NCBI GenBank assembly: GCA_029959295.1
Contig: JASCOH010000008.1
Span: 124,001 to 188,000 of the forward strand
Length of the DNA: 64,000 nucleotides
Direction of reading: 5' to 3'
Source of the DNA: Flavobacteriaceae bacterium PS02334
GTDB lineage: Bacteria; Bacteroidota; Bacteroidia; Flavobacteriales; Flavobacteriaceae
In this document: piece by piece, positions 5,791-31,013 of the stretch
Position numbering within the stretch: position 1 is the stretch's first letter
How the letters are laid out: the number at the start of each line of letters is the position of its first letter
Notes under the pieces: model-generated
Databases searched by the model: none
Told to the model about the DNA's origin: nothing
Seen by the model: the letters and a program-made list of their open reading frames with translations, nothing else
Translations under genes and position numbers: made by a program

Positions 5791-5820
5791 TGCGGGCACG
5801 GATTGCAAATCCGCGCTAAC
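5791..5820. repeat. REP-like hairpin element (copy 1)
   Basis: A 30-bp element with flanks GCGGGCACG and CGCGCTAAC and a GGATT/AATCC stem between them. The 30-bp element at 9366-9395 has the same flank pattern with a different stem. The form resembles REP palindromes mobilised by RAYT transposases. It overlaps the stop codon of the truncated DUF4238 gene. Confidence 0.55.
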
Positions 5821-6011
5821 TATTGTGGATATCCGCGCGGTCGGGGTAATGTGTAAATGTTTTTTTCAACACAAATATCTCTTGTACTTAAAGTTAAAAT
5901 TTTTTCACTTTCTTTATTTTTTGCAGATATAAAGTTTTTGTCATTTTCACTAATTGCAAAATTGTTCAAGTAACTTTTGGGAATAAAATGTTGATGTACT
6001 GGCTTACTCAT
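5820..6011 (-). pseudogene. Truncated DUF4238 gene
   Basis: Only 63 codons remain. The N-terminus (HQHFIPKSYLNNF, then CVEKNIYTLPRPRG) matches the start of DUF4238 proteins, which are normally about 250-350 residues long. The frame ends at a stop that overlaps the REP-like element at 5791-5820, so the 3' part has been lost, probably by insertion or deletion at that element. The ATG lies 17 nt past the GTTAGC box of the cassette-boundary element at 6029-6158, as expected of a cassette gene. Confidence 0.65.
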
Positions 6012-6028
6012 ATGTTCTTAAAATTATC

Positions 6029-6158
6029 GCTAACGTTTCGCAGCCAGGCTTAGTTGCGTAAATTGGAACTGAGTTTTTTCGGCGAGACAGAACGAAGTTA
6101 TGAAAAAGAAACGTTACGGCAACAACAAAAACAGCAATTAAGCCTGACTGCTGTTAGC
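6029..6158 (-). repeat. attC-like cassette boundary element S1
   Basis: A 130-bp element with outer arms GCTAAC (6029-6034) and GTTAGC (6153-6158) and inner arms 6040-6052 / 6139-6151 (12 of 13 paired, TAAGCC core). On the minus strand the right-hand arm carries four extra bases, AAAC, just before GTTAGC, giving an asymmetric bulge. The GTT/AAC boxes, inner stem and variable centre match attC architecture. The centre shares about 50 bp with S2, including AATTGGAACTGAGTT. Confidence 0.6.
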
Positions 6159-6166
6159 CGACGTTT

Positions 6167-6859
6167 TCACATTAAAATTAATATTTGATGACGATCTCTA
6201 ATTTGTCTTTTTTGTTTGAATGCCTCAACAATATAGTCCGACAATATTGTTCTCTCGATTTTGTCATTTTCTGATAAATAATCAACAAAAGATTCTTCAA
6301 AAGTTTCATCGTTATCTCCATATCCAACTTCATCGTACTCATTTTCAAATATTACTGCTTGCCAAGGTGTTTTTAAAATTTCGTTTCTGAAGTCATCAGG
6401 TACACCCCAAATTAATGACTCATCATTTAAATCTATTGGAAATTTACGATCATTTTTTGAATCATATCTTATAGCGTTACCGCCATTTTTTCTAAGAATT
6501 TTTTTCCACAAATTATAAGACCCAGGTAATGTATTGACATGATCAGAAACTAAACTTCCTGAATAAAAACCGAAACACAGATTATATAAAATTTCACCAT
6601 AACCTTTTCGTGGTTTGAGGGAAAATGATTTGGAAATTTGATAAAACTGTTTCCCATGAAATGCGACTTTAACCAAACGTATCAAAGCTAAATCATCGTC
6701 GTTATTATCAGTTAAAAGATAAAGATGCATATCACTACCTTCAAATTGTAGAAGTTTGAATTCGTCTAAATCAATTTCTAATTCAATGAAATCGTAATAT
6801 CGTCTAATATCCACATGATAGTATTCAGATGTATCTATGTAAGACGTGAGGTTTGGCAT
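6167..6859 (-). CDS. Hypothetical cassette protein, possibly GNAT-like
   Basis: About 230 residues from ATG 6859 (MPNLTSYIDTSEYYHVDI). A longer frame to 6913 would read through the boundary element S2 and is rejected. The middle region (RKGYGEILYNLCFG, then LVSDHVNTLPGSYNLWKKIL) resembles the acetyl-CoA-fold segment of phage-type GNAT-like proteins, but the match is weak. The C-terminal part is acidic. The stop codon is 8 nt from the AAC box of S1 and the start is 19 nt past the GTT box of S2, so the gene exactly fills one cassette. Confidence 0.65.
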   Translation of the reverse strand: MPNLTSYIDTSEYYHVDIRRYYDFIELEIDLDEFKLLQFEGSDMHLYLLTDNNDDDLALIRLVKVAFHGKQFYQISKSFSLKPRKGYGEILYNLCFGFYSGSLVSDHVNTLPGSYNLWKKILRKNGGNAIRYDSKNDRKFPIDLNDESLIWGVPDDFRNEILKTPWQAVIFENEYDEVGYGDNDETFEESFVDYLSENDKIERTILSDYIVEAFKQKRQIRDRHQILILM

Positions 6860-6878
6860 AAGTGTTCTAAAAATGACG

Positions 6879-7008
6879 GCTAACGTCCTGTGGCTTTGCG
6901 ACTGTTGCGACAATTGGAACTGAGTTCTCTCGGCTGGAGAAAGCGAAGTTAGGAAATTATAATTTAATTCTATAACTTATTGAGCAATAGCGCAAAACCG
7001 CTGTTAGC
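6879..7008 (-). repeat. attC-like cassette boundary element S2
   Basis: Also 130 bp. Outer arms GCTAAC (6879-6884) and GTTAGC (7003-7008) pair perfectly. Inner arms 6889-6900 and 6991-7002 match at 9 of 12 positions (TTTGCG/CGCAAA), with a 4-nt bulge GTCC on one side. The left half is homologous to S1, the right half is not. The 5' box (minus strand) begins 6 nt after the stop codon at 7015. Confidence 0.6.
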
Positions 7009-7014
7009 AGAAGT

Positions 7015-7788
7015 TCAAATTAAGCTGTCGTGGTGTTTAATTAGTCGATTTTCGTCGTTAATAATTGCTTCTGATATTTTCTCTACAATTATATCTTGAT
7101 TTTTTTGATTAGTTACAATAATGTACCGAATGTTATCTAAAATATTATCGCCTTTACGTGCTTTTATATTTAGTTTTCTTAACTTTAATTGAGTTAAAAA
7201 CACTTCGTTAATTATCCCATTGTTATGTGTTAAAATATTTCTATACAACGATGATAAATAAAGGGCATCTAGTTCCACTTTTGTAATTTTAAACTTGAAG
7301 GAAAATAATTTTTCCATTTTTGCAATTACATCGACAATATTATTACTTTGGACAATTTTTTTTACTTTATCAGTAATAACATAATCTTGAATATCGTCAA
7401 TAGTACTTGCTTGGTCAAAGACTTTCTCGTATGGAATATCGTTTCTATTTTCTGCATTATTAAGATATTTAGGAAAACTAGCAAAACAAGAGTAAATAGT
7501 TTCTGCCAAGCATTCTTCGAAAAATTGAAAATGCAACTTACAAACTAGTTCGTTATTTATTTTTTCGTAAGTTCTTTTCTGAGTTTTAGTTTCATTATTA
7601 ACTTTTTCAAACTCTTCATAAGAAAAAGGAATTTTTCCTTCTGGTATTTCCGAAATAACTTTTCTTATATCTATAGTTTCAATTAATAGATGCGTTTGAA
7701 GATTCCTAATTTGGAAATTAGAAATTTCAAGTCTTTTGACAACGTATGATTTTTGGATGTTTAATATACTTTTTTTAAATATGCTCAT
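7015..7788 (-). CDS. Hypothetical cassette protein with HEPN-like RX4H motif
   Basis: 257 residues, AT-rich coding, no signal peptide or membrane segment. The only suggestive motif is LYRNILTHNNG: Arg183 and His188 are separated by four residues inside a helix, the RX4-6H pattern of HEPN ribonuclease domains common in toxin and phage-defence proteins. The rest (basic N-terminus, helical middle, EKISEAIINDENRLIKHH tail) is unrecognised. It is a single gene between elements S2 and S3. HEPN membership is an inference. Confidence 0.65.
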   Translation of the reverse strand: MSIFKKSILNIQKSYVVKRLEISNFQIRNLQTHLLIETIDIRKVISEIPEGKIPFSYEEFEKVNNETKTQKRTYEKINNELVCKLHFQFFEECLAETIYSCFASFPKYLNNAENRNDIPYEKVFDQASTIDDIQDYVITDKVKKIVQSNNIVDVIAKMEKLFSFKFKITKVELDALYLSSLYRNILTHNNGIINEVFLTQLKLRKLNIKARKGDNILDNIRYIIVTNQKNQDIIVEKISEAIINDENRLIKHHDSLI

Positions 7789-7817
7789 ACTTTCGTGAAT
7801 TTTGGAGATGAATTTCT

Positions 7818-7890
7818 GCTAACTTATATATACCCGCTACTCAATAGCGCCAATCCAACACCCGTAAGTTGTATATGCGCTACAAATCAG
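7818..7890 (-). repeat. Degenerate cassette boundary element S3
   Basis: Minus-strand reading gives ACAACTTACGGG near one end and TATATAAGTTAGC (GTTAGC box at 7818-7823) near the other, with AACTTA/TAAGTT complementary and a CGCTA/TAGCG hairpin (7835-7849) inside. The inner stem of S1 and S2 is missing, and the 5' end is 57 nt from the stop codon at 7947. It is placed with the other elements because of its GTTAGC box 29 nt before a start codon. Confidence 0.35.
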
Positions 7891-7946
7891 CAAATTATTC
7901 CACTAAAGTAATAAATTATCCAACACCGTAAACTTTTCTTACAGAA

Positions 7947-8300
7947 TCACTTCCTCAAAACCACCAGCAACACCTCCTTCTCTGCCTTTAAAATCTCAAT
8001 CTCTTTTTCAAGACTGGCAATTTTAGCATCCTTTTCCATCCATTTGGTCTCGTCTTTTGAATACGACTCCGGCAAAAGGTCGGCCAGGTCGGCAAAGAAA
8101 TTGTGCTTCATCGCATGGCTGAGTTCTTCGATTATGGCAGACTGCAGTGAGGGTCGTTTTTGAAACGTTCCGATTGTGCTGTCGCTGCGGTTGATTTTTC
8201 GGGCAAGTGCGCTTTTATAGATTCGGTTTTTCTTAAAGTAAGCTCCGAGCAAGGCGCCAAAATTTATTAGGCCATCATTTTCAAGATAGATTTTATTCAT
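7947..8300 (-). CDS. HTH DNA-binding protein with C-terminal coiled coil
   Basis: 117 residues. Residues about 12-65 have an XRE/lambda-like helix-turn-helix look (FGALLGAYFKKNRIYKSALA, KINRSDSTIGTFQKRPSLQ). Residues about 82-117 form a heptad coiled coil (DAKIASLEKEIEILKAEKEV) likely to dimerise the protein. Immediately upstream lies the 21-bp tandem array (8327-8515), whose two-turn spacing suits cooperative binding along one helix face. Autoregulation through the array is an attractive inference. The DNA target has not been shown. Confidence 0.7.
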   Translation of the reverse strand: MNKIYLENDGLINFGALLGAYFKKNRIYKSALARKINRSDSTIGTFQKRPSLQSAIIEELSHAMKHNFFADLADLLPESYSKDETKWMEKDAKIASLEKEIEILKAEKEVLLVVLRK

Positions 8301-8326
8301 GTTTTATGCTGTTTTATTTGCGTAAA

Positions 8327-8515
8327 GGCTCATTTAATACCTTGTTAGGCTTATCTAATACACTTTTAAGCTGATTAAATATACGTTGTGACTGATTTTA
8401 TATATTTTAAGACTGATTTAATAAAAAATGTGACTGATTAAATACACTTTCAGGCTGATTAAATATATGTTTGGACTTATTTTATACAGTTTTAGACTTG
8501 TTTTTCTCTATTAAA
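8327..8515. repeat. Nine-copy 21-bp tandem repeat array
   Basis: Nine units start at 8327, 8348, 8369, 8390, 8411, 8432, 8453, 8474 and 8495, with no phase slip. The degenerate consensus is G-R-C-T-K-ATTTAATACACTTT. All frames across it contain stops, so it is not an intact peptide repeat. The period equals two helical turns, as in iterons or multi-operator regulatory regions. It fills the 275-bp spacer between the HTH gene and the terminator of the next gene. Confidence 0.8.
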
Positions 8516-8531
8516 TCTTTAGGCTTAGGCA

Positions 8532-8559
8532 CAAAAAAACTGCCAGATCCCTCTGGCAG
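8532..8559 (-). terminator. Rho-independent terminator
   Basis: On the minus strand CTGCCAGA-GGGA-TCTGGCAG is followed by TTTTTTT. It ends transcription of the gene at 8576-9064 before the 21-bp array. Confidence 0.9.
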
Positions 8560-8575
8560 TACTTCGGCCTTGCTT

Positions 8576-9064
8576 TTAAATCTCGGTTTTGGCAGGTCTC
8601 CCCGCATTTCCCTGCGCATTAAAACGCGTACTTAGTTTTTCATACGGCTGTTTGGCCTGGTTCAGTCCGGCGTTGTTGGCGCTTTCAAAAAGTTTGTACA
8701 CCGTCAGCCCGCCCGTGTAGGCTTCGTCGCCCGCAATGCGTTTTAGGTCGGCAATGCGCTGCAACAGCGTGTTGATGCCCGACTCGATGGCGTCAAGCTG
8801 GTCATAGAGCATGATGTCGTTTTGCAGGTGCGCGGCGTTTAAAAAAGCGGGCATGATTCCGGCGCCGTTCACCGTCATTTCTGTGATGGCATCTTCCACA
8901 AAAATCTTGTTGTCCACATTGATAGATTTTAAGTTCATGCGCTGTTCGTCAGTGAGGCTGCCTGCAGGAAGTTTTGAATTGATGGCAGCGATGCTCGCGT
9001 TAATGATGGCGATGTCTGCAGCAGTAATAACCGTGTTCAGCTTGTTTTCAGTGATGTTTCCCAT
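8576..9064 (-). CDS. Hypothetical protein with atypical composition
   Basis: 162 residues, probably all-helical and soluble, rich in Ala, Asn and Ile (TVITAADIAIINASIAAINS, GINTLLQRIADLKRIAGDEA). It uses GC-rich codons (GCG, GCC, CTG, CGC) much more than its neighbours, which suggests transfer. No family recognised. It has its own terminator (8532-8559). Its upstream region is copy 1 of a diverged 180-210-bp direct repeat whose second copy (12999-13212) has no such gene beside it. Confidence 0.65.
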   Translation of the reverse strand: MGNITENKLNTVITAADIAIINASIAAINSKLPAGSLTDEQRMNLKSINVDNKIFVEDAITEMTVNGAGIMPAFLNAAHLQNDIMLYDQLDAIESGINTLLQRIADLKRIAGDEAYTGGLTVYKLFESANNAGLNQAKQPYEKLSTRFNAQGNAGRPAKTEI

Positions 9065-9099
9065 TTTTTTGTCTTTTTTTAGTTAGTAATAGGCTTAAA

Positions 9100-9281
9100 C
9101 ATGCACGGAATTTAACAAAGTAATGACACATGTAAATTACTGAGGTGCAATAATTTACGATAAAACCCTCAATAGTCGTTGAAATGCTCTTTTCTCCGAC
9201 GAATAGCAATGATCTAGAAATTTTCTGTGGTTTTTTAGAGGACAAAAAAGAATAGTGGGGCAGAATGCCGATTGTTTTTAG
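9100..9281. repeat. Long diverged direct repeat, copy 1
   Basis: 182 bp that align with 12999-13212. Shared blocks include TTACTTC/TTACGAT-AAAACCCT, AATAGTCG, GCTCTTTTCT, AATTTTCTG, GGTTTTTTAGA, CAAAAAAGAATAG and CAGAATGCCGATTGTTTTTAG. The two copies bracket about 3.7 kb that holds five cassette-type genes. Copy 1 lies directly upstream of the gene at 8576-9064. Confidence 0.7.
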
Positions 9282-9305
9282 AATGGAACAGAAAAGGCAA
9301 CTTAT

Positions 9306-9395
9306 GCTAGCGCCAGCATCTTGCTCGTTTCAATTATCAAAAGTCAAGCTAAAGAATTTTTTTATCGCGGGCACGAGCAAGATGCTCGCACTAGC
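9306..9395. repeat. Inverted pair of REP-like arms
   Basis: Arm 9306-9327 and arm 9374-9395 are inverted repeats matching at 20 of 22 positions. The right arm belongs to a 30-bp element (9366-9395) with the GCGGGCACG...CGCACTAGC flanks of the element at 5791-5820. A REP/inverted-REP pair of this kind is typical of RAYT-mobilised palindromes. The 382-bp gap 9065-9446 holds this pair and the direct repeat, and no gene I can support. Confidence 0.6.
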
Positions 9396-9446
9396 ATGGG
9401 ACGATAACTCGCAAATTTCGCTTAGTGTTTTTTGTAAGCAATGCGG

Positions 9447-10085
9447 TTAATATATTTTCTTTATATAAAATTGCGGAAGATTTTTCATATAATCCTTGAA
9501 TCTCTCTTCATTAAAAATCCATTTTTCCCATTTCGATTTGCTTACGTATTCTTTCTCACGCGTATTATACATTGTATTAACTTCGATAAATTCCTGCATT
9601 ATTATTTCATAATCATCAGAAATTAGAAAAAGTTCGTATTGTTCTTTTTTGAACTCAATAAAACCTTCAAAGTCAAGGATTTTAAAATCATTGAGATTTC
9701 CATTTTTAATTTCCAGAATTTCGTAGAATTCATAATGATTTTGCTCTGGAAATTGTGATTCGCCTTTTTGTAAATTTTTGTAAAGTATGATAATGCAATT
9801 CAACCAGTCTAATTTCATTTTTGACCGATCTTTAAATAATCCATTTAAAAATATCTCTTTTTCGTCTCCTTTTTCAGAGTGTATTAAATCGACATCTTTT
9901 AACAGCAATTCGTAGTTGTCAGTTATTTCAAACTTAGCAACATACCCACGCCAGCATGCAGAAAAGCCACCTGAATATTTTGGAGCCAATTGAGGATTTT
10001 CCCTAATTCTATATTCAAGTATTTCATCTCTGAGAAAATGTTCCTCGTTTTCGTAAATTAATTTATCTTGTATTTGCCAAGTCAT
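9447..10085 (-). CDS. Hypothetical cassette protein
   Basis: 212 residues, soluble and acidic, rich in aromatic residues (YSGGFSACWRGYVAKFEITD near residues 38-57, then a tryptophan-rich C-terminal KSKWEKWIFNEERFKDYMKN). The N-terminal pattern with an xWRGYxAxFEI segment recurs in small bacterial hypothetical proteins, but I cannot name a family or function. Its start lies 29 nt after the GTT box of element S4. It is probably a standalone cassette gene. Confidence 0.65.
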   Translation of the reverse strand: MTWQIQDKLIYENEEHFLRDEILEYRIRENPQLAPKYSGGFSACWRGYVAKFEITDNYELLLKDVDLIHSEKGDEKEIFLNGLFKDRSKMKLDWLNCIIILYKNLQKGESQFPEQNHYEFYEILEIKNGNLNDFKILDFEGFIEFKKEQYELFLISDDYEIIMQEFIEVNTMYNTREKEYVSKSKWEKWIFNEERFKDYMKNLPQFYIKKIY

Positions 10086-10114
10086 TTAATAAGAAGGATT
10101 ATGGATGTATTGTT

Positions 10115-10166
10115 TATAACGGGTATGCTTTGCGCTAGGCTCATCTTGTGGAAAACCCTTGTTGGC
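10115..10166 (-). repeat. Short attC-like boundary element S4 with mismatched ends
   Basis: Minus-strand reading: GCCAACAAGGGTTTTCC at the 5' end, 7 nt after the stop at 10174, and CCCGTTATAAACA at the 3' end, 29 nt before the next start. The 5' half is nearly identical to that of S6 (AACAAGGGTTTT). The outer boxes pair only at AAC/GTT (GCCAAC against GTTATA), and no clear inner stem is seen. At 52 bp it is the shortest of the set. Confidence 0.45.
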
Positions 10167-10173
10167 GGGAGTT

Positions 10174-10958
10174 TTATTCGTCTGTAATTTGAATTGGCAT
10201 TATTAAAGTATATTTCTTTGAAATCGGCTTTCCATTTTCTTTTGCAGGTATCCATTTAGGCGAATTTAAGATTACACGTATAAATTCAAGTGATAGTTCG
10301 TTTGGTGTAAAATAATCTAAAATCGGGTTCGTTACTTTGCCTTGCTTATCGACAATAAACGAAATACTCGCTCGGTAGGAACCACTTGCTAAGTCTTTCA
10401 TTACAATGTTGGCATTAAGGTAAATTTCATTAGCCAAATAGTTTTTGAAAGTGGGATATAAATCAGAAACGAACTTCAGTCCCTGGTCATCTGTATCTTC
10501 TTGCTTAAGTACTGCGTTTTGAGCAGTTATGAGTCCAAAACCACTATAAGCATCTTGTATTCTCTCGGAATTGTAGGGTAAAAAATACTTTAAAGCTTCG
10601 GTAAAATCAATAACTTTTTGTAGTTTTCCTGCTTCAAATATCTTCCATTTGCCGATTGGTAAGTCGATATGATAATTCCCCTCACTTACCACTACACCAT
10701 CTGTGTAAAGCTTACAGAGACCTTCTTTCAACGAATATCTGAATAGGAAATGTAGCTTAAAATCTGCTTGAGTGTCAAATCATACTTCTCTATGGCATAT
10801 CCGTCAGAAAGTTTTGTCTTTGTTTCACGTAATACAGCATCTTTCTCACTAACAATTCGATGATTTTGGTCAAAATATTTGGTGGTTGTTTGTGCTGTTA
10901 CAGATGTTAAGCAAGCATTTAGGATAAAAAATAATAAAAATAAAGATTTCGTTTTCAT
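10174..10958 (-). pseudogene. TonB-like energy transducer, frameshifted
   Basis: Two adjacent frames together give one familiar protein. The first (10728-10958) has a signal peptide (MKTKSLFLLFFILNACLTSV) and KYFDQNHRIVSEKDAV. It ends in SYSDIR, then stop. The second (10174-10731) continues with KEGLCKLYTDGVVVSEGNY and GKWKIFE (MORN-like antigen repeats) and a TonB C-terminal-like domain ending SPKWIPAKENGKPISKKYTL. Bacteroidota proteins of this type are single chains. The downstream frame has only a TTG at its start, so a one-base shift near 10729-10735 is likely. It could be a real mutation or a sequencing error. Confidence 0.7.
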
Positions 10959-10978
10959 TTTTGGTTTTTAAAAGTGAC

Positions 10979-11030
10979 GCACAACGGTTTAGGGCTTGGC
11001 TCAGGCAGGGGATAGTAGCACTTCAGTTGA
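10979..11030 (-). repeat. Half boundary element S5
   Basis: Only the 3' half (minus strand) is seen: CCCTGCCTGAGCCAAGCCCT then AAACCGTTGTGCG, 21 nt before the start at 10958. It is clearly related to the 3' halves of S6 and S7. No matching 5' arm follows the stop codon at 11098. Confidence 0.45.
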
Positions 11031-11097
11031 ATTTTGCTGTGTAAGGATCAAAGGAGTGCTAAAAAGTATTGATAAACTATTTCTTAAAATTTACTAC

Positions 11098-11616
11098 TTA
11101 ATCATTAGTTGGTGGTCCTGTAGGGATTATCCTCTTTTGATAGTCGTGTGATAATGTGTCAGGGTCGATGTCTTCTTCTTTTTGAGAAACTGCAATAAGT
11201 TTACGAAACTTATCAGGCTTGTAGGTGGAAATTCCCATTTTTGGCGGAAAATGATAGTCAAAATACCGTGTGGTAATGATAAGTGCGTTGTCCGTTATAA
11301 TATAGCTTCCTTCTCTTGATATTTTTTTAGAATCATTTCTGATAAGTTTTGGAAAATACCCCTCTTTGGTTTTGCCGTTTTTTGTCACATTATAAATAAT
11401 ATAAGTTTCTCCTGTTTCTCCAACATTATACCCAAAATCAAAGTTGTCCATTCCTCCTTTTGATACTTGCGAATAAATGGCGTAATTAAAATTTTTAAGC
11501 TTAAAACTCACAACTAATTTTTCTTTAGATTGTGGTTTTGGCATTGTTTCTACTTTTACCTGTCCAAAGGAAAATATAGAACTCATTAGTAGAAAGGTGC
11601 AAATTATTATTTTCAT
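11098..11616 (-). CDS. Secreted hypothetical cassette protein
   Basis: 172 residues with a Sec signal peptide (MKIIICTFLLMSSIFSFGQ, cleavage after FGQ). The mature protein is beta-rich (VVSFKLKNFNYAIYSQVSKG, ETYIIYNVTKNGKTKEGYF) and ends in a proline-rich tail. No domain recognised; a periplasmic location is likely. The start codon lies 33 nt after the GTTAGC box of element S6. Confidence 0.65.
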   Translation of the reverse strand: MKIIICTFLLMSSIFSFGQVKVETMPKPQSKEKLVVSFKLKNFNYAIYSQVSKGGMDNFDFGYNVGETGETYIIYNVTKNGKTKEGYFPKLIRNDSKKISREGSYIITDNALIITTRYFDYHFPPKMGISTYKPDKFRKLIAVSQKEEDIDPDTLSHDYQKRIIPTGPPTND

Positions 11617-11649
11617 TTTTAATTATTTTAGGGTGTCAGAAAAATTACC

Positions 11650-11778
11650 GCTAACGTTTTGGGGCTTGGCGTTCGGCAGGAAATCGAAGCACAAAAGCCG
11701 ATATTATTACTAAAGTTCAATTGAAAAACTACTGTTGATTTTTGCAATCAGCCCGCCTGACGTAAAACCCTTGTTGTG
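11650..11778 (-). repeat. attC-like boundary element S6 with chimeric ends
   Basis: A 129-bp element. On the minus strand the 5' end reads CACAACAAGGGTTTTACGTC, 9 nt after the stop at 11788, and the 3' end reads AAGCCCCAAAACGTTAGCGG. The inner arms (11660-11680 / 11752-11772) match at 13 of 21 positions plus several G-T pairs. The outer boxes CACAAC and GTTAGC pair only at AAC/GTT. Its centre and 3' half are nearly identical to S7. Confidence 0.6.
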
Positions 11779-11787
11779 TGTAGTCCT

Positions 11788-12450
11788 TTATTTTAGCATT
11801 ATTGAGTTTTCTTTTAGTCCAAAATTATTGTTTATTTCAGGTAAACACTTTTCACTAATCCAAAAATCTGGGCTTGAATTAACGTCATCTCTTACTGCCT
11901 TTACTTTGTGGGCTTGTTTTTTTATTCTTTTAATTAACTCAACATATAATTTATATGTTGTGAGATTTTCGGTTTTAATGGTTTTATTATTCCGCAAAAT
12001 TTCTTTCGGATAAGTAAACTCAAGTCCAATATGTGAATTTCTTTTACTATCAAATAAGTTTACACGCAGTTGTTGTTTGTGGTCAACCATTAATGAAAAA
12101 GGACTAATGTTAATAACTGGTTCAATTTGAATAGAGCGTTTGAATTTCTTAAGTTGATTGTCTTCTTCTATTTCAAAAACTTCATACTTAATATATTTTG
12201 GATTGTCTGTTATTTGAGTATAAATGTCTAATTTCCATTCTTCTTTTTTCCATTCACTTCCAGAAGTTATTTTATTGTAATACAATTCATATTGTTCAAA
12301 TATTGAAGTTTTGTCCTCAATTTTATAATCTACTTCAACTCTTGTATTAGTTATTGCGATAAAGTATTCTATGTCATAAAAAATGCTCTCAAATTCTGAA
12401 GGGTGAAGAACAAATTTGAATTTATGCCATTTTAGTCCTGTGTAACTCAT
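11788..12450 (-). CDS. Hypothetical cassette protein
   Basis: 220 residues, soluble, no signal peptide. An N-terminal beta-rich part (WHKFKFVLHPSEFESIFYDI, VEVDYKIEDKTSIFEQYELY) is followed by a basic helical stretch (KLYVELIKRIKKQAHKVKAV) and a C-terminal tail ending NNFGLKENSIMLK. No family recognised. It lies between elements S6 and S7 and its stop is 9 nt from the AAC box of S6. Confidence 0.65.
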   Translation of the reverse strand: MSYTGLKWHKFKFVLHPSEFESIFYDIEYFIAITNTRVEVDYKIEDKTSIFEQYELYYNKITSGSEWKKEEWKLDIYTQITDNPKYIKYEVFEIEEDNQLKKFKRSIQIEPVINISPFSLMVDHKQQLRVNLFDSKRNSHIGLEFTYPKEILRNNKTIKTENLTTYKLYVELIKRIKKQAHKVKAVRDDVNSSPDFWISEKCLPEINNNFGLKENSIMLK

Positions 12451-12514
12451 CTTTTAATTTATTAGTAATTCTTTTAAGTTTTTTCTTCTTTGTGATGGTG
12501 TTGTTCGATAGGAT

Positions 12515-12583
12515 TACACACAACGTTTCGGGGCTTTGCGTTCGGGCGGGAAATCGAAGCACAAAAGCCGATATTATTACTAA
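12515..12583 (-). repeat. Half boundary element S7
   Basis: The minus strand reads TTAGTAATAATATCGGC directly at the stop codon (12584), then GCACAAAAGCC-type sequence in reverse and GCAAAGCCCCGAAACGTTGTGTG. This is the centre and 3' half of S6 with a GTTGTG box. The 5' arm is replaced by the coding end of the upstream gene. Confidence 0.5.
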
Positions 12584-12898
12584 TTATTTTAAGCGAGGCA
12601 GATACACCAAATAGCCCAAAAAAAGCCCTAACGGGATAAAAAAGCACAGCCCGCAGAAAAAACCATAGATTCGGCCAATTCTTCTCCCGTAGTTGTAGCT
12701 CACTTTTCGAGGATATCCCTTTCTTGCAGGATTGCCTGTCCATTGCGGATCGGGCTTATACAGCCAGTCCCAATCTCTGAAGGCGCCAATTATCATCAAA
12801 ATGCCATAGGTGATTAAAATGAGGGATATTCCTGCAAATAATAAGTTGGGGTTATTGTCAATCCATTTTTCAATAAAATCTTGTTCTTCTTTTTTCAA
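12584..12898 (-). CDS. Small membrane protein, possible Imm17-type immunity protein
   Basis: About 104 residues starting at TTG; no in-frame ATG precedes it before a stop. Two membrane segments (NLLFAGISLILITYGILMII and GFFCGLCFFIPLGLFLGYLV) flank a loop with DWDWLYKPDP and PRKVSYNYGRRIGR. Size, topology and the Trp-rich loop resemble Imm17-family immunity proteins, but I rate this match as tentative. No toxin gene is adjacent. It is the first gene of the minus-strand cassette series. Confidence 0.55.
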   Translation of the reverse strand: MKKEEQDFIEKWIDNNPNLLFAGISLILITYGILMIIGAFRDWDWLYKPDPQWTGNPARKGYPRKVSYNYGRRIGRIYGFFCGLCFFIPLGLFLGYLVYLPRLK

Positions 12899-12998: not shown

Positions 12999-13212
12999 CA
13001 TGCAATTTAAAGAAGTAACGATATATAAAACGGTTGCATTGCAATTATTTACTTCAAAACCCTTAATAGTCGATGAAGCGCTCTTTTCTTCGACCAATGG
13101 CAATAATTCAGCAATTTTCTGTATTTTTTCAAGCCTTTTTTTAATAAGGGTTTTCGATTGGTTTTTTAGATAGCAAAAAAGAATAGCTTGGCAGAATGCC
13201 GATTGTTTTTAG
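12999..13212. repeat. Long diverged direct repeat, copy 2
   Basis: Partner of 9100-9281, with about 34 extra bases after the shared AATTTTCTG block. It fills much of the 438-bp gap 12899-13336, together with the pfkB-type promoter; no gene is supported there. A GCCGAT/ATCGGC hairpin sits at its right end (about 13198-13226). Confidence 0.7.
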
Positions 13213-13283
13213 CGTTGATCGGCAAGCACAACTGCTTAAAATCCAATCAGATATATTAACAAAAACTTTGCACCGCCAAAGCC

Positions 13284-21827: not shown

Positions 21828-23021
21828 ATGTACGGAAAAATAAAAGAACATCTTCAGTCAGAATTGCAGGCCATTGAAGACAACGGAATTTTCAAAAAAG
21901 AAAGAATTATCACGTCGCCACAAGGTGCGGAAATCACGATTTCAACAGGTGAAAAAGTATTGAATTTTTGCGCCAATAATTACCTCGGATTGTCTTCGCA
22001 TCCAGAAGTAGTTCAAGCCGCAAAAGACGCTTTAGATACACATGGTTTCGGAATGTCATCGGTTCGTTTTATCTGCGGAACTCAAGACATTCACAAAACT
22101 TTGGAACAAAAAATTGCAGATTTTTATGGCACGGAAGACACGATTTTGTATGCCGCCGCTTTTGATGCAAACGGAGGTGTTTTTGAACCTTTGTTAGGGG
22201 AAAATGACGCAATAATTTCTGATTCTTTAAACCACGCTTCGATCATCGATGGCGTTCGTCTTTGCAAGGCAGCCCGTTATCGTTATGAAAACAGCAACAT
22301 GGAAGATTTGGAACAGCAATTGATCAAGGCAAATGAAGCGGGACATCGTTTCAAAATCATCGTGACTGACGGCGTTTTTTCTATGGATGGCGTTGTCGCT
22401 CCGTTGGATAAAATCTGTGATTTGGCTGATAAATATGATGCTTTGGTTATGGTTGACGAATGTCATGCAGCAGGATTTATCGGTGCGACAGGAAAAGGGA
22501 CTTTGGAGGCAAAAGGCGTTATGGGCCGTGTCGATATCATCACCGGAACGCTTGGAAAAGCTTTGGGCGGTGCCATGGGCGGTTATACGACAGCTAAAAA
22601 AGAAATCATCGAATTGCTTCGCCAGCGTTCAAGACCTTATTTGTTTTCAAACTCTTTGGCGCCGTCAATTGTTGGTGCTTCGATTAAAGTTTTCGAGCTT
22701 TTAGAAAAAGATACTACGCTGCGAGATAAGCTGGAATGGAACACGAATTATTTCAAAAAAGGAATGAAAGAAGCGGGCTTTGATATCATCGATGGCGACT
22801 CTGCAATAGTTCCCGTGATGCTTTATGATGCGAAATTATCGCAAGATATGGCTAATGAGCTCTTAAAAGAAGGCGTTTATGTAATAGGATTTTTCTTCCC
22901 AGTGGTTCCAAAAGACAAAGCAAGAATAAGAGTACAGCTATCGGCAGGGCACACAAAAGAACATTTAGATGTTGCAATTCAGGCTTTTACGAAAGTTGGG
23001 AAGAAGTTAAATGTGATTTAG
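21828..23021 (+). CDS. kbl: Glycine C-acetyltransferase (2-amino-3-ketobutyrate CoA ligase)
   Basis: 397 residues, the same length as the E. coli enzyme. It is a fold-type I PLP enzyme: the PLP lysine is Lys244 in [14 protein letters not shown], the same number as in E. coli. [10 protein letters not shown] and [11 protein letters not shown] give the PLP-ring and Asp contacts. It converts 2-amino-3-ketobutyrate plus CoA to glycine and acetyl-CoA in threonine catabolism. No threonine dehydrogenase gene is adjacent. Confidence 0.93.
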
Positions 23022-23064
23022 CATAATATTTAACTAAATTTGAGTTAATTTTTTAACATAAATC

Positions 23065-23095
23065 TTTGTAGTTAAGTTTTAACATATTACTTTTG
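23065..23095 (+). promoter_or_regulatory. Strong promoter of OmpA-family gene
   Basis: TTTG at 23065-23068, 19-nt spacer, TACTTTTG at 23088-23095: a full match to the Bacteroidota consensus, 37 nt before the start codon. Confidence 0.8.
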
Positions 23096-23132
23096 TCTGT
23101 AATTAACGTATTGTAATCTAATAAAATTAAGT

Positions 23133-24539
23133 ATGAAACATCTAAACAAAATTCTTGCTGCTACCTTGTTAGCTGTTGGCTTGAACGCCAATGCACAAGA
23201 TAGCGACAATCCATGGGCTATTTCCTTTGGAGCTAACGCGGTAGATACTAAGTTCAGTGCTGCATCTAAAGTAGAAGATCAGTTTTCAGGATTTTTTAAC
23301 GCAAAAGATCACTGGAATATCTTGCCTTCAGTATCTTATCTTAACGTTTCTAGAAGCGTAGGATCAGGATTCTCTGTAGGAGTAACTGGATCTGTTAACA
23401 AAATTGATAAATTTGTAACAAGAACTCCTGGTACACTAAACACTTATGAAGCTAACAATCCTGGTGATTTGACTTACTACGGAGTTGATGGTTTGATCAA
23501 ATATAGCTTTGCTAACCTAATCGGTTCTAAAGTTATTGATCCATCTATCCACGTTGGTGGAGGTTATACTTTCTTGGGCGATGCTAGCGCAGGAACTGTT
23601 AACGGAGGTTTAGGATTAACTTTCTGGTTTACAGAAACTGTTGGTCTTTCTCTTCAATCAACTTACAAACATTCATTTGACGATACAAGAACTCCAGATG
23701 TAGATGTTGCTTCTCACATGCAGCACTTCGCAGGTCTTACTTTCAAATTTGGAGGTAAAGATACAGACGGAGACGGAATCTATGATAAAGATGACGCTTG
23801 TCCAGATGTTGCTGGTTTAAAACAATTCCAAGGTTGTCCTGATACTGACGGAGACGGAATTCCAGACAAAGATGACGCTTGTCCAGAAGTTGCTGGTTTA
23901 GCTGCTTTCCAAGGTTGTCCTGATACAGACGGAGACGGAATCGCTGATAAAGACGATGCTTGTCCAAACGAAGCTGGTACTAAAGCTATGAACGGATGTC
24001 CTGACAGAGACGGTGACGGTGTTGCTGACAATGTTGACAAATGTCCAGATACTAAAGGACCAAAAGAAAATGGTGGTTGTCCTTGGCCAGACAGAGACGG
24101 AGATGGAGTTTATGACAAAGATGATAGATGTCCAGACGTTAAAGGTACTGTTGCTAACAACGGATGTCCAGAAATCACTGAAGAGCAAGTTAGCAAATTG
24201 AATGCTTACGCTAAAACTATCTTGTTTAACAGCGGAAAAGCGACTTTCAAACCAGAAACTATGCCAGTATTGGAAGCTATCAACGCTATCCTTAAAGAAT
24301 ACCCAACTTCAAGATTCTCTATCGAAGGTCACACTGATAGCGATGGTTCAAATGCGTTAAACCAAACGCTTTCTGAAAACAGAGCTGCAGCAGTTAAAAA
24401 CTTCTTGATTGAAAACGGAATCGAATCTTCAAGATTAAGATCTACAGGATTTGGTGAAACTAAACCAATCGATACTAACAAAACTGCTAAAGGTAAAGCT
24501 AACAACAGAAGAGTTGAAGTGAAATTGATCAAAGATTAA
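23133..24539 (+). CDS. OmpA-family outer membrane protein with thrombospondin type-3 repeats
   Basis: 468 residues. Signal peptide (cleavage after NANA). Residues about 20-205 look like an eight-stranded OmpA-type barrel. Residues about 210-346 hold five calcium-binding repeats of the DxDGDGxxDxxDxCPD kind. The rest is an OmpA/MotB peptidoglycan-binding domain ([31 protein letters not shown] given in part, NNRRVEVKL). It anchors the outer membrane to the wall. Codon use is strongly biased (AAC, GGA, CCA), as in highly expressed genes. It has its own promoter and a terminator at 24562-24592. Confidence 0.93.
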
Positions 24540-24604: not shown

Positions 24605-27367
24605 ATGAATGAAACTACTTTTTTAGATAAAATAGCAATGGTAATCCTTGAAACAAGCAAGGAAAATTTATCAGATTTAGTAGTAGTTCTGCCCAATAAG
24701 AGAGCTAAAGTTTTTCTTATTGAAGCATTGCGAAACAAAGTGGAAGACACCATTTTTTCTCCAGAAATCATCAGCATTGAAGATTTTGTGCAAGACATTG
24801 CCGGAATTCGTTCGGTGGATAATATTGAATTGTTGTTTGAATTTTATCAGGTTTACTTAAATGTTACTGATCAAAAACTGCAGCAATCCTTTGAATTATT
24901 CGCCAACTGGGCAAAAACGTTATTGCAGGATTTTAATGAAATCGACAGATATTTATTAGATCCAATATATGTCTTGTCTTACTTAAAAGATATTGAAGAC
25001 ATCAAAAAATGGGGAATTGAAGTCGAAAACAAAACCCAGTTATTAGAAAATTATATTGATTTTTGGAAACTCCTTCCAAACTATTATCAATCACTTTATA
25101 CACATTTGTTAAACAAAGGAATCGGATATCAAGGCCTGATTTACCGTCAAGCTGTGGAAAATCTGAATCATTTCTCAAATTCAATTACCAATAAAAAATT
25201 CCTTTTTGCAGGATTCAACGCTTTAAATGCTTCCGAAGAAAAAATTGTACAGCATTTGATGGCTTCCGACTTGGCCAAAATTTATTGGGATGCTGATCTT
25301 GCTTTTCTAAATGATCCTTTTCACGATGCGGGATTGTTTTTGCGAAGATTTAAAGAATCTTGGAAACACTACAAATCAAATCCGTTTGAATGGATCGTGG
25401 AGGATTTCAAGCTGTCAAAAAACATAAAGATTATCGGAACTCCGAAAACAATCGGGCAGGCCAAAATCGCTGGAGATATTATCAAACAGACCATCGAAGA
25501 AGATAAAGTTTCGCTGAATAAAACGGCTATTGTTTTAGGGGAAGAAAATCTTTTGGTGCCGCTTTTATATTCTTTGCCAAACACTGTCGGCGCTTTAAAT
25601 ATCACGATGGGTTATTCCGGAAAGAATAATCCGGCGCAGATTTTAATCGCCAAATTGTTCAAAATGCACACGAATGCTTTGAGCAGAAGTGGAGAAAGCT
25701 ATGTGTTTTATTACAAAGATGTTTTGGATATTTTGACGCATCCTTTGGTAGAACCTTACGCCAATACTTATAAATTGGTGAATATCATCAACCAAAATAA
25801 TTACACTTTTATCACCCACAAAAAAGTCATAGAACTCAATGAAACGCCAAGTGATCTGTTTCTTTTGCTTTTTCATAAGTGGGAAAATGGTTCCATGGAA
25901 GTGTTAGAAACGCTATCCAATTTATTGCTTTCAATCAAATCAAATTTGAGCAACGATAGCGACGAAGAAAAGATTACGAAGGCTTTTGTGTATTCTATTT
26001 TTAAAGTAATCAACCAGCTCATAAATTACTATTCAAAACACGAACACATCAACAAAATCGATACGTTGTATGCGATTTACAAACAGATAATTGATCTCGC
26101 TGAAGTTTCTTTTGAAGGAGAACCATTGAACGGATTGCAGATTATGGGAGTTCTAGAAAGCCGTGTTCTAGATTTTGAAACCGTTATTGTAACTTCTATG
26201 AATGAAGGAAAGTTTCCTGCTGGCAAGAGCCAGAATTCTTTTATTCCGTATGATGTGAAACGAGAATTGGGTCTGCCTACTTACAAGGAAAAAGACGCGA
26301 TTTATACCTATCACTTCTATCATTTATTACAAAGAGCTAAAAATATCTACCTGCTTTACAACACCGAAAGCGACGGTTTAGACGGTGGTGAAAAAAGCCG
26401 TTTTATCACACAATTGGAAGTAGAAAAACAGTCGGCGCATAATCTTACACATGAAATTTACAACACAGAAGTTCCTGGAGTTGCTTACCGACCGATTGTG
26501 ATTCCAAAGTCAGAAAAAGTCATGGTTCGATTGAGGGAAATTGCTGAAAAAGGGTTTTCTCCTTCGGCATTGACGAGTTATATTCGTAATCCGATTCAGT
26601 TTTATATGCAAAAAATCTTGCGCATCAGCGAAGTCGAAGAAGTCGAAGAAAATATTGCCTTGAATACGTTAGGAACAATTATTCACGGAACTTTAGAAGC
26701 TTTGTATACGCCATTGATCGATAAATTTCTTTCCGCAGAAGATATTAAAAACTGCATCAAATTAATCGACGAAGAAGTTTTAAAACAGTTCAAGGAAGTT
26801 TACAAAGAAGGCGAAATCAAAAAAGGGAGAAACCTTTTGGCCTTTGAAGTTGCCAAAAGAAACGTGCTAAATTTTTTAAGATTAGAACTGCAGGAAATTG
26901 AAAGTGGCGACGCTGTGAAAATCATCGCTTTAGAAAAAACTTACGAAAGAATATTAGAACATCCAAGTTTGCCTTTCCCAGTTTTAATCAAAGGAAATGT
27001 CGACAGAATCGAATATCGCAATGGAAAAATTAGAATTATAGATTACAAAACAGGAAAAGTTGAAGCCAGAGATGTTTCCTTAAAACAATGGAATAAGCTG
27101 ACTTCTGATATAAAATCGGATAAGATTATTCAGGTTTTGGCGTATGCTTTTATGTATGAACCGCATCTTCAAAACCAAGAAATGGAAGTGGGGATTATTT
27201 CTTTCAAAAACTTAAAATCTGGATTTCTGCCTTTTAATTTTAAAGTAGAAAAAACCGAGATTTCTATAATTAACGAAGATATTGCTTCAAATTATATTGA
27301 GCAATTAGTAATTCTTTTGAATGAAATTTTAGATGTAACTATTCCTTTCGAAGAAAAAGTAAATTAA
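24605..27367 (+). CDS. AddB-like PD-(D/E)XK nuclease/inactive helicase
   Basis: 920 residues. The N-terminus (DLVVVLPNKRAKVFLIEALR) and a helicase-like body lacking a Walker A motif fit AddB, the partner of AddA. The C-terminal nuclease has GTIIHGTLEALY, GNVDRIEYRNGKIRIIDYKTG (in parts: GNVDRIEYRNG, IIDYKTG) and a following QVLAYAFMYE. In well-known AddB proteins cysteines around this domain bind an Fe-S cluster. Here the segment that usually contains CP reads SYIRNPIQFYM, so the cluster is probably absent. Only 13 bp lie between the upstream terminator region and the start. Confidence 0.85.
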   Translation: MNETTFLDKIAMVILETSKENLSDLVVVLPNKRAKVFLIEALRNKVEDTIFSPEIISIEDFVQDIAGIRSVDNIELLFEFYQVYLNVTDQKLQQSFELFANWAKTLLQDFNEIDRYLLDPIYVLSYLKDIEDIKKWGIEVENKTQLLENYIDFWKLLPNYYQSLYTHLLNKGIGYQGLIYRQAVENLNHFSNSITNKKFLFAGFNALNASEEKIVQHLMASDLAKIYWDADLAFLNDPFHDAGLFLRRFKESWKHYKSNPFEWIVEDFKLSKNIKIIGTPKTIGQAKIAGDIIKQTIEEDKVSLNKTAIVLGEENLLVPLLYSLPNTVGALNITMGYSGKNNPAQILIAKLFKMHTNALSRSGESYVFYYKDVLDILTHPLVEPYANTYKLVNIINQNNYTFITHKKVIELNETPSDLFLLLFHKWENGSMEVLETLSNLLLSIKSNLSNDSDEEKITKAFVYSIFKVINQLINYYSKHEHINKIDTLYAIYKQIIDLAEVSFEGEPLNGLQIMGVLESRVLDFETVIVTSMNEGKFPAGKSQNSFIPYDVKRELGLPTYKEKDAIYTYHFYHLLQRAKNIYLLYNTESDGLDGGEKSRFITQLEVEKQSAHNLTHEIYNTEVPGVAYRPIVIPKSEKVMVRLREIAEKGFSPSALTSYIRNPIQFYMQKILRISEVEEVEENIALNTLGTIIHGTLEALYTPLIDKFLSAEDIKNCIKLIDEEVLKQFKEVYKEGEIKKGRNLLAFEVAKRNVLNFLRLELQEIESGDAVKIIALEKTYERILEHPSLPFPVLIKGNVDRIEYRNGKIRIIDYKTGKVEARDVSLKQWNKLTSDIKSDKIIQVLAYAFMYEPHLQNQEMEVGIISFKNLKSGFLPFNFKVEKTEISIINEDIASNYIEQLVILLNEILDVTIPFEEKVN

Positions 27368-27409
27368 TTAAACGCAAGATTTTAAAGGTTTTGCAAAATA
27401 TGCAAATGT

Positions 27410-28192
27410 TTACAAGGTCTTAAAAAAATCCAATAGTTCTTTCTTTAACTCCTCTCTATTTTCAATCGGACTCATGTGCCCATCAGCAAAAGAAAGCAAT
27501 TTTACAGCAGTGTTTTCAAGTTGCTCAATACTTTCTTCATAATTTAAAACAGGATCATTTTTGCCCAAAACCAACAGTATCGGATAGTTTGCAAAATGCA
27601 AAATAACTTCTCGGTCTTTGCGAGTTTTCATGCCTTCCAAAGAAGCCACAATTCCCTGCAAAGGCGTTTTTAAAGCTTCTGTTTTTACGTTTTCAATTTC
27701 AGATTCTAATCTTTCACGATTGTTTTCGCTGAATAAATTTGCAATTGAAAGTCTTACGAAGTTGGTGTAATTTTGTTTTACAGCTTTAATCGCACGGTCG
27801 CGATTTGCTTTTCTTTCGTCAGAATCTGCCCTTGAAGTGGAGTTTAAAAGCACGATTCCTTTGACATTATCAGCGTATAATTCGGCGAAGGCCAAAGCTA
27901 CGTAACCGCCCATCGAATGCCCGATAAAAACCGCTTTCCTGATTTTTAATTCTGATAAAACGGCATGAACCGCATCGGCATTGTCTTCCATAGAATGGAT
28001 GTAGCCCATCGGTTCGGTGTTTCCATGGCCTAATAAATCGATGGAAATCACTCGAAATTTCTTAGAAAAATCCGGAGTAAAATAATCCCACATTTTACTG
28101 TTTTCTAGAAAGCCGTGGAGGAAAACTAAAGCTGTTCCTTTTCCAGAATCAGAGAAGGAAATTTTTGTGTTTTTATAGATTATTTGTTTCAA
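27410..28192 (-). CDS. Alpha/beta hydrolase
   Basis: 260 residues. Complete catalytic machinery: oxyanion-hole HGF (26-28), nucleophile Ser93 in GHSMGGYVAL, acid in LGKNDPVLN and His in FADGHMSPIENRE. It belongs to the MenH/BioH/epoxide-hydrolase-like group. The substrate is not predictable. Convergent with the addB-like gene (42 bp apart), divergent from abiH. Confidence 0.9.
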   Translation of the reverse strand: MKQIIYKNTKISFSDSGKGTALVFLHGFLENSKMWDYFTPDFSKKFRVISIDLLGHGNTEPMGYIHSMEDNADAVHAVLSELKIRKAVFIGHSMGGYVALAFAELYADNVKGIVLLNSTSRADSDERKANRDRAIKAVKQNYTNFVRLSIANLFSENNRERLESEIENVKTEALKTPLQGIVASLEGMKTRKDREVILHFANYPILLVLGKNDPVLNYEESIEQLENTAVKLLSFADGHMSPIENREELKKELLDFFKTL

Positions 28193-30834: not shown

Positions 30835-30962
30835 AGGAAATAATTTAAATTGATAATTTTTGGCCACGAATTCACGAATTAAGTATTTCTTTTTCGTGAA
30901 TTGGTCACAAATTTAATCAATCCTTATTTATTAATTGTTTTGAAAAGCTTAAAATAAAAAAA

Positions 30963-31004
30963 CGCAGATTCGCAGATTAAAAAAATAAAATCTGCGAATC
31001 TGCG
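30963..31004. repeat. CGCAGATT palindrome, terminator-like
   Basis: A perfect 16-bp stem (CGCAGATTCGCAGATT and its complement) with a 10-nt A-rich loop, between the HMG-CoA synthase gene end and the aminopeptidase gene. The same palindrome occurs at 56372-56468 with a longer loop. Confidence 0.7.
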
Positions 31005-31013
31005 GTAAAATAT

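Follow-up and report, generated by a model that had tools for sequence, protein, structure and literature searches.

Evidence for a widespread integron-type gene-capture system in Bacteroidota, traced from an apparently orphan cassette array in a Flavobacteriaceae genome

What are the folded elements that separate short, unrelated genes on one strand of a Flavobacteriaceae contig, and what might have placed them there? The question is raised by a 64,000-nt stretch of the genome of Flavobacteriaceae bacterium PS02334 (G000:C68:124001-188000; the focal genome counts 4.59 Mb in 69 contigs), hereafter called the window, in which seven elements, S1 to S7, lie among minus-strand genes between positions 5820 and 12898. 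An earlier note on this DNA took them for attC-like sites between integron-type cassettes with no integrase nearby, a reading that the comparisons reported here support. The elements are very probably the recombination sites through which an integron-type system of Bacteroidota captures genes, and the window would hold an orphan, partly decayed array of that system, in which an attI-type site has been kept and the integrase gene is absent. The cassette nature of the units, the attI-type site and the link to a recombinase rest on sequence statistics that were replicated in separate sets.

Three of the seven elements are intact attC-like sites on the minus strand: S1 (6025..6162, with AAC at 6155-6153 and GTT at 6034-6032), S2 (6875..7012, AAC at 7005-7003, GTT at 6884-6882) and S6 (11646..11782, AAC at 11775-11773, GTT at 11655-11653). 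Each is a long imperfect hairpin with AAC and GTT, as read on the gene strand, for its boundaries; the assignment relies on the fold for S1 and S2, and on model score and end pairing for all three. They are among the 12 elements of the focal genome whose alignment, A1, was the source of a covariance model, R1, and their own R1 scores (107.7, 108.9 and 72.3 bits, respectively) are therefore not independent. A1 supports a structure of 25 pairs with 83.2% of cells paired. Changes on both sides occur in 19 of the 25 pairs, a number reached in none of 500 shuffles, and the covariation score is 0.545, against a shuffled mean of 0.193 and a best slid value of 0.130.

In the focal genome, R1 finds 26 sites at E<=0.1, distributed in clusters on contigs C22 (nine and five sites), C44 (three), C67 (three) and C68 (three, those of the window) plus three singles, each cluster being confined to one strand. 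The clearest recurrence lies at ~53-61 kb of C22, where short minus-strand genes alternate with elements. Across 225 cassettes AAC lies a median of 13 nt behind the stop codon and the start codon a median of 33 nt behind GTT, and the longest open frame is on the site strand in 225 of the 231 cassettes with a frame of at least 60 amino acids. Each cassette thus consists of one or a few short genes, with GTT at its start and a folded site at its end. The sites carry asymmetric unpaired spacers between an outer and an inner stem, as attC sites do; the loop opposes 1 nt to 5 nt in 252 of 326 sites, and an excess of 4 is seen in 304 of them.

A cassette that moves as a circle cut at GTT should have the pairs around AAC and GTT joining both of its own ends, whereas in the linear array the two flanks of one site need not pair. 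From 233 R1 matches, seven were dropped before counting (five antisense readings of counted sites, one cut at a stretch end and one partial); 14 of the remaining 226 sites, with AAC or GTT not in place, were then removed, and the 212 left delimit 185 cassettes with a gap of 60-2500 nt. The reverse complement of the bases before AAC matches those that follow GTT at the start of the cassette in 95.7-97.8% of cases at positions 1-6, in 62.2% at position 7, in 2.2% at position 8 and in 82.2-85.4% at positions 9-12, with chance values from position 13. At positions 1-6 the corresponding values are 27.6-73.0% for the site's own 3' flank and 25.1-73.1% for shuffled starts. At least five of six positions pair with the cassette start in 179 of 185 cassettes, versus 26 for the own flank, and shuffling gave at most 34 (2000 shuffles) or 49 (2000 within-array shuffles). 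R1 assumes own-flank pairing, so that the model leans against this result. Position 8 of the cassette start, where pairing is very rare, is an A in 178 of the 179. The pairing was replicated at 40 other loci (73 of 77 cassettes; own flank, 9) and at loci from named organisms (52 of 57; own flank, 8), including 10 of 14 cassettes outside Flavobacterium (own flank, 0). As the outer arms pair across the cassette, a complete site closes only on the circular cassette; it would comprise 4 bp, the fixed unpaired A, 6-7 bp, AAC/GTT, the 1x5-nt asymmetric loop and the long stem. The ends of a single cassette are therefore complementary, with boundaries at GTT, which is an integron trait.

A canonical array (G591, L223), adjacent to an IntI gene over the TIGR02249 cut-off and carrying 12 sites on the divergent side, served as positive control. 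Its ends pair in 11 of 11 cassettes and never with the own flank, at 100% for positions 1-6, 91% for position 7 and 82% for position 8, with none beyond; the loop is 2/6 or 1/5 in 12 of 12 sites, which had been located by a simple pattern that demanded a loop excess of 4. By the same pattern, no array of at least three sites was seen in the other 10 IntI stretches. Since the canonical array pairs likewise, cassette-end pairing is an integron trait, while the fixed A mismatch at +8 followed by four further pairs is, among the arrays compared, peculiar to the Bacteroidota system. The R box of attC sites has the consensus GTTRRRY; this motif occurs in 3 of 179 cassettes here, yet in only 3 of 11 in the canonical control as well, and does not discriminate.

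Which recombinase would act on these sites? Tyrosine-recombinase matches number 14 in the focal genome; all stay below the TIGR02249 cut-off, and C44 carries the best one. Relatives of the C44 protein stand directly upstream of an array, in the same orientation, in all four complete genomes whose array heads were fetched (G073, G045, G139 and G119). A profile of array-head recombinases, A3, matches at E<=1e-70 in 83 of 150 genomes of the genus sample, all samples comprising one genome per species. At 40 genus loci, picked from the 91 matches listed for a full-length recombinase and contig room, sites on the recombinase strand number 124 downstream and 1 upstream; on the opposite strand there are 9 upstream and 2 downstream, both of the latter being antisense readings of counted sites. 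At least one downstream site is present at 30 of the 40. Among named loci, the best 80 of 563 relatives, the same strand has 96 sites downstream and 2 upstream and the opposite strand 0 downstream and 15 upstream, in divergent layout; 36 loci have the array downstream and 12 are divergent. These loci include Runella, Pedobacter, Parapedobacter, Kaistella, Maribacter, Chitinophagaceae and one Ignavibacteria metagenome-assembled genome, and the 15 divergent rows are confined to one clade (support 100/93). The earlier note had proposed looking for tyrosine recombinases linked to such arrays, and one family indeed appears tightly tied to them.

The array recombinases differ from IntI in several respects. 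They possess an extra N-terminal domain of ~75 residues, and the spacing between the lysine and the HxxRH motif is 64-68 residues in the 79 measurable of 81 recombinases, compared to 106 in 12 of 12 IntI; the IntI insertion is absent, and phmmer alignments break at the same place. All five proteins scanned score below the TIGR02249 cut-off (178-210.6 bits versus 265). In a phylogenetic tree, the 81 recombinases (8 from our genome samples, 73 named) form one clade (99/93) beside, and not within, that of 13 IntI (100/99), away from Xer; the tree is midpoint-rooted with long branches, which leaves its depth unsure, and 7 of the 80 named recombinases, short or interrupted, were left out. The best solved-structure match is IntI4. 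Published work describes the insertion as essential if integrons are to function, although its conservation is incomplete in an integron-like subgroup (PMC8138268), and uses it as defining (PMC9668308). On sequence grounds, the system falls outside a membership test defined by IntI, yet it displays the working features of integrons. A variant recombinase with a frame of ~590-610 amino acids, in which the same catalytic part is C-terminal to a long unknown N-terminal part, was also observed (G142:C29:41448-42365, G113:C26:182342-183259, G047:C46:24911-25828, and others).

Between recombinase and array lies a putative attI. At 26 of 34 loci, the best pairing partner of the first site is a start located 92-106 bp behind the recombinase stop codon, and at 3 it lies at 151-156 bp; in the others it is at 204, 225, 694 or 843 bp or was not found. 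These attI-type sites mostly read TATATACAA or similar before GTT, a stretch that is itself preceded by a variable inverted word, whereas internal sites have VRRAC before GTT. S3 (7821..7893, minus strand, GTT at 7823-7821) aligns with 31 attI-type sites and belongs to this set, as does the head of the C22 array. No recombinase of the family adjoins either of them; 74 tblastn matches correspond to another recombinase ~16 kb on. Thus the arrangement of an integrase at the array with attI in between is present in the system, and the window, keeping only the attI-type site, would hold an orphan array. Contig C44 of the focal genome has the divergent layout: an attI-type GTT lies 79 bp before the recombinase gene and pairs at 6 of 6 positions with the first site, which follows a cassette with Crp-, alkylhydroperoxidase- and DoxX-like genes (named by reading). 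First cassettes behind attI at L025:6760-8517 and L234:17359-18393 likewise encode a Crp/Fnr-type regulator with small partner genes.

Traces of movement are visible in the arrays. An all-against-all comparison of array DNA yielded 33 repeats of 350-1300 bp with at least 95% identity, of which 27 end at GTT in both copies (within a 25-nt window; such windows make up 2.4% of positions) and 19 start at GTT in at least one copy. G045 holds two copies of a 1230-bp cassette, 100% identical and ~28 kb apart, one of which sits at attI; on the left the copies differ up to GTT, one flank being of attI and the other of internal type, and on the right they diverge immediately behind GTT. A pair in G061 (1170 bp, 99.6%) consists of a copy at attI and another more than 400 kb off on the same contig. 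Within the array DNA compared, near-identical cassettes with ends at GTT agree with the expectation of gene changes falling exactly at the boxes.

Returning to the window, S3 heads an array piece in which the pairing of cassette ends holds at 11 of 12 positions for S3-S2 and 10 of 12 for S2-S1. The first cassette contains a gene at 7015..7788 (257 amino acids) and the second one at 6167..6859 (230 amino acids); behind S1, an open frame at 5820..6011 (63 amino acids), truncated-looking by reading, is the last of the piece. In a second piece, S7 (12522..12590, limits approximate) is, by reading, the 3' half of a site, and its GTT opens the cassette that ends in S6, with the gene at 11788..12450 (220 amino acids) and pairing at 11 of 12 positions. 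The mismatch is at the 8th position in each of the three cassettes. Behind S6 comes a gene at 11098..11616 (172 amino acids) whose own site is reduced to S5 (10983..11065, a 3' half with limits approximate, by reading), followed by S4 (10118..10163), a short degenerate site, and by a gene at 9447..10085 (212 amino acids) whose own site is not seen. All these features are on the minus strand. The five window genes scanned as cassette genes, those of 257, 230 and 220 residues among them, match no Pfam family at E<=0.01.

The view of seven attC-like elements consequently stands for S1, S2 and S6 (three of seven by R1), whereas S3 is of attI type and S4, S5 and S7 are partial. S4, previously counted as a two-ended site, shows no pairing between its end and the start of the S5 cassette; S7, a half site, nevertheless opens a cassette whose start pairs with S6. 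The uniform minus-strand orientation and the short gaps to stop and start codons hold. So does the lack of a recombinase of the linked family, as the 81 proteins of the family used as tblastn queries gave no match in the window at E<=1e-3. By contrast, a single array over 5820..12898 is not what we find: the genes at 7947-9064 and 12584-12898 have no visible attC-like site at their ends, and the span therefore consists of array pieces (~5.8-7.9 kb and ~11.1-12.5 kb) and of remnants around 10.1-11.0 kb. In the genome of a related species (G129), the stretch beside the flanking sugar-kinase gene contains no R1 match.

Nor is the family specific to this lineage, as had been supposed. R1 matches are found at E<=0.01 in 133 of 150 genus genomes, with per-genome counts that are often lower bounds, and at E<=1e-4 in 238 of 395 genomes and 127 of 196 genera of the class sample, scanned with this model from a single genome. 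A custom model run over related genomes, as the earlier note had suggested, thus revealed long one-strand arrays. The complete genome G073 has at least 150 R1 matches, on one strand within ~170 kb among the matches listed; when its array region was fetched piecewise, ten stretches together contained 255 matches at E<=0.01, all 255 on one strand and two truncated by the end of a stretch, or ~250 sites. In G073 (L066:11130-11750 and L229:4825-5445), sites also recur every 241 bp, three in a row, with almost no gene room, like tandem mini-cassettes. A contrast set of 27 stretches around IntI, Xer or other recombinases gave only 3 matches at E<=0.01 in 319 kb. These 3 lie on the divergent side of two canonical IntI genes, beside them, and resemble canonical attC in sequence, which suggests that R1 reaches true attC sites weakly. 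IntI over the TIGR02249 cut-off was found in 105 of 395 phylum genomes, with only one matching genome from this class.

We found no account of this system in open-access papers (preprints and most subscription journals lay outside this search), including the accessible parts of PMC9024848, PMC9668308, PMC8618304, PMC8138268, PMC8352920, PMC3478194, PMC2426708 and PMC8565304. PMC9024848 reports a survey by standard software in which Bacteroidetes at first yielded nothing beyond integrase-only elements, and later one complete Salinibacter integron. The system apparently represents a very common yet undescribed kind of Bacteroidota integron.

In such a system, the recombinase would exchange strands at the GTT core; circular cassettes would be excised by recombination between two sites, and inserted mainly at attI by recombination between attI and a site. 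As with attC, a single folded strand is probably what is recombined, and the asymmetric loop would show which of the two strands it is. Recognition of this substrate, for which IntI uses the insertion that is absent here, may fall in part to the extra N-terminal domain. Cassettes of the window would move only by a recombinase from elsewhere; the focal genome has a related one in the complete divergent C44 system, but the attI of that system looks different.

Simpler explanations have to be weighed against this mechanism. Strong hairpins just behind stop codons might suggest nothing more than transcription terminators, RNA hairpins or REP-like palindromes of intergenic regions. The inner stem is indeed within the element, but the outer arms pair across the gene, over hundreds of bases (179 of 185 cassettes), and neither the linked recombinase, nor the attI-type site, nor repeats ending at GTT would be accounted for, which makes this reading very improbable. 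Hardly more credible is the proposal that each unit is a small transposable element moved by a transposase: cassette ends do form inverted repeats of up to 15 positions, but the repeat words vary between cassettes, the large hairpin is outside one end only, units abut while sharing a GTT, and arrays start at a fixed attI-type site beside a tyrosine recombinase. Repeated cassettes could also arise without any site-specific step, through homologous recombination between repeated sites or duplication between them, as sites are alike within a genome and 12 of the 33 repeats extend through the preceding site, from its beginning; for these, homologous recombination is possible. As a general explanation it is scarcely plausible, for 19 of the 33 start at GTT in at least one copy, copies at attI have no flanking sequence in common with internal copies, and the pairing rule and recombinase linkage would be left aside.

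A more serious contender is an ordinary IntI integron whose recombinase merely lost the insertion, with nothing functionally new. It agrees with the IntI4 structural match and the grouping with IntI rather than Xer, with the same end pairing and similar 4-nt loop asymmetry of the canonical array, with the weak reach of R1 into sites beside canonical IntI, and with the incomplete conservation of the insertion in the integron-like subgroup of PMC8138268. Against it speak the separate clade of 81 recombinases, the insertion absent in 79 of 79 measurable, the low TIGR02249 scores in 5 of 5, the N-terminal domain, and a fixed A mismatch at +8 with four pairs beyond it, which the control does not show; we regard it as unlikely, though to be kept in mind. 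We think it probable instead that a second great integron lineage exists in Bacteroidota, in which the insertion was never present or was lost, and which reads a related site with the fixed A mismatch and four extra pairs, perhaps via the N-terminal domain. Integron recombination would then predate the IntI insertion, or the insertion would have been replaced.

Several observations weigh against an integron-type system as proposed here. No R1 match is found in 17 of the 150 genus genomes, and 67 of 150 have no recombinase at E<=1e-70, many of them with sites, so that arrays without a recognised recombinase are common. No such recombinase was seen in array stretches of G010, G061 and G112, whose fetched parts stopped short of the head. 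Of the named recombinase loci, 32 of 80 have no sites, and 10 of the 40 genus loci have none downstream: in 6 the contig ends (within 1.2 kb in five and 2.9 kb in one), 2 are divergent, and 2 are unexplained, with no site in ~9.3 kb. Contig ends lie within 3 kb downstream of the recombinase at 14 of the 40 loci and upstream at 0, in a set whose choice favoured contig room. Such ends are expected if repeated sites defeat assembly, in which case draft genomes may understate arrays.

Compared with chromosomal IntI integrons, the Bacteroidota system shares the integrase at the array head, the attI-type site, one-strand arrays of short genes, the GTT core, cassette-end pairing, the 4-nt loop asymmetry and a sister position in the tree, as well as, in one clade, the divergent layout; PMC8352920 mentions same-orientation 'inverted' IntI. 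It differs by the shorter catalytic spacing and N-terminal domain of its recombinase, by the separate clade and by the added pairs of its sites. The window, C22 and other arrays of the focal genome have no adjacent integrase and in this resemble CALIN, for which PMC9024848 sets a threshold of at least two attC sites called by IntegronFinder and no integrase; window and C22 arrays differ in keeping an attI-type site, and CALIN are defined by software-called attC sites. The XerA-type NCBIfam profile NF040815 ('site-specific tyrosine recombinase/integron integrase') is the best profile for 4 of 5 array recombinases (194.1-230.8 bits), with 2 of 5 over its 220-bit cut-off, but the array recombinases group with IntI, away from two XerA chains, and head cassette arrays. 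Which part of the integrase reads the folded site now becomes a directly testable question, with a bearing on whether the IntI insertion preceded or followed cassette capture.

A large pool of mobile cassettes is also opened; in one array, ~250 sites lie mostly beside unknown genes. In a cargo set of 95 cassette proteins out of 104 candidates, from five genomes, 34 Pfam families are matched, 20 of the 25 listed by one member; they include GNAT acetyltransferases, HepT-like, Mrr_cat and Cass2, the last described as integron-associated. PADLOC returned 19 models, with one member each. Cassettes are plasmid-borne too: on NZ_CP041688.1 of Chryseobacterium sp. SNU WT5, a recombinase with 46% identity to that of Flavobacterium cellulosilyticum (L123) occurs together with an attI-type site and with cassettes whose ends match by reading.

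Other mobile elements were noticed within the arrays. That of NZ_CP041688.1 contains an IS110-family transposase, a group II intron reverse transcriptase and another transposase (L234:20299-21300, 22765-24081 and 26212-27749); attC sites are targeted by elements of the IS110-family and group II intron type. Units of ~2.5 kb, made of an IS91-type transposase and a short tyrosine recombinase, are repeated in arrays as if a transposon targeted the sites: six recombinase copies occur in G139 (L072:5057-19224, L071:1990-2853) and two units on plasmid NZ_CP094530.1 (L235:19821-21763, 29682-31624).

Finally, the window shows three repeats of other kinds. Two 75-90-nt stretches are repeated at 9146-9302 and 13040-13233, with 80-81% identity, in the same order and ~3.9 kb apart. 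A degenerate A+T-rich tandem repeat with a 21-nt period (8312-8479) lies upstream of the gene at 7947-8300, and at 9304-9397 there is an inverted repeat, unrelated to the R1 sites, whose 25-nt arms are 92% complementary and stand 44 nt apart.

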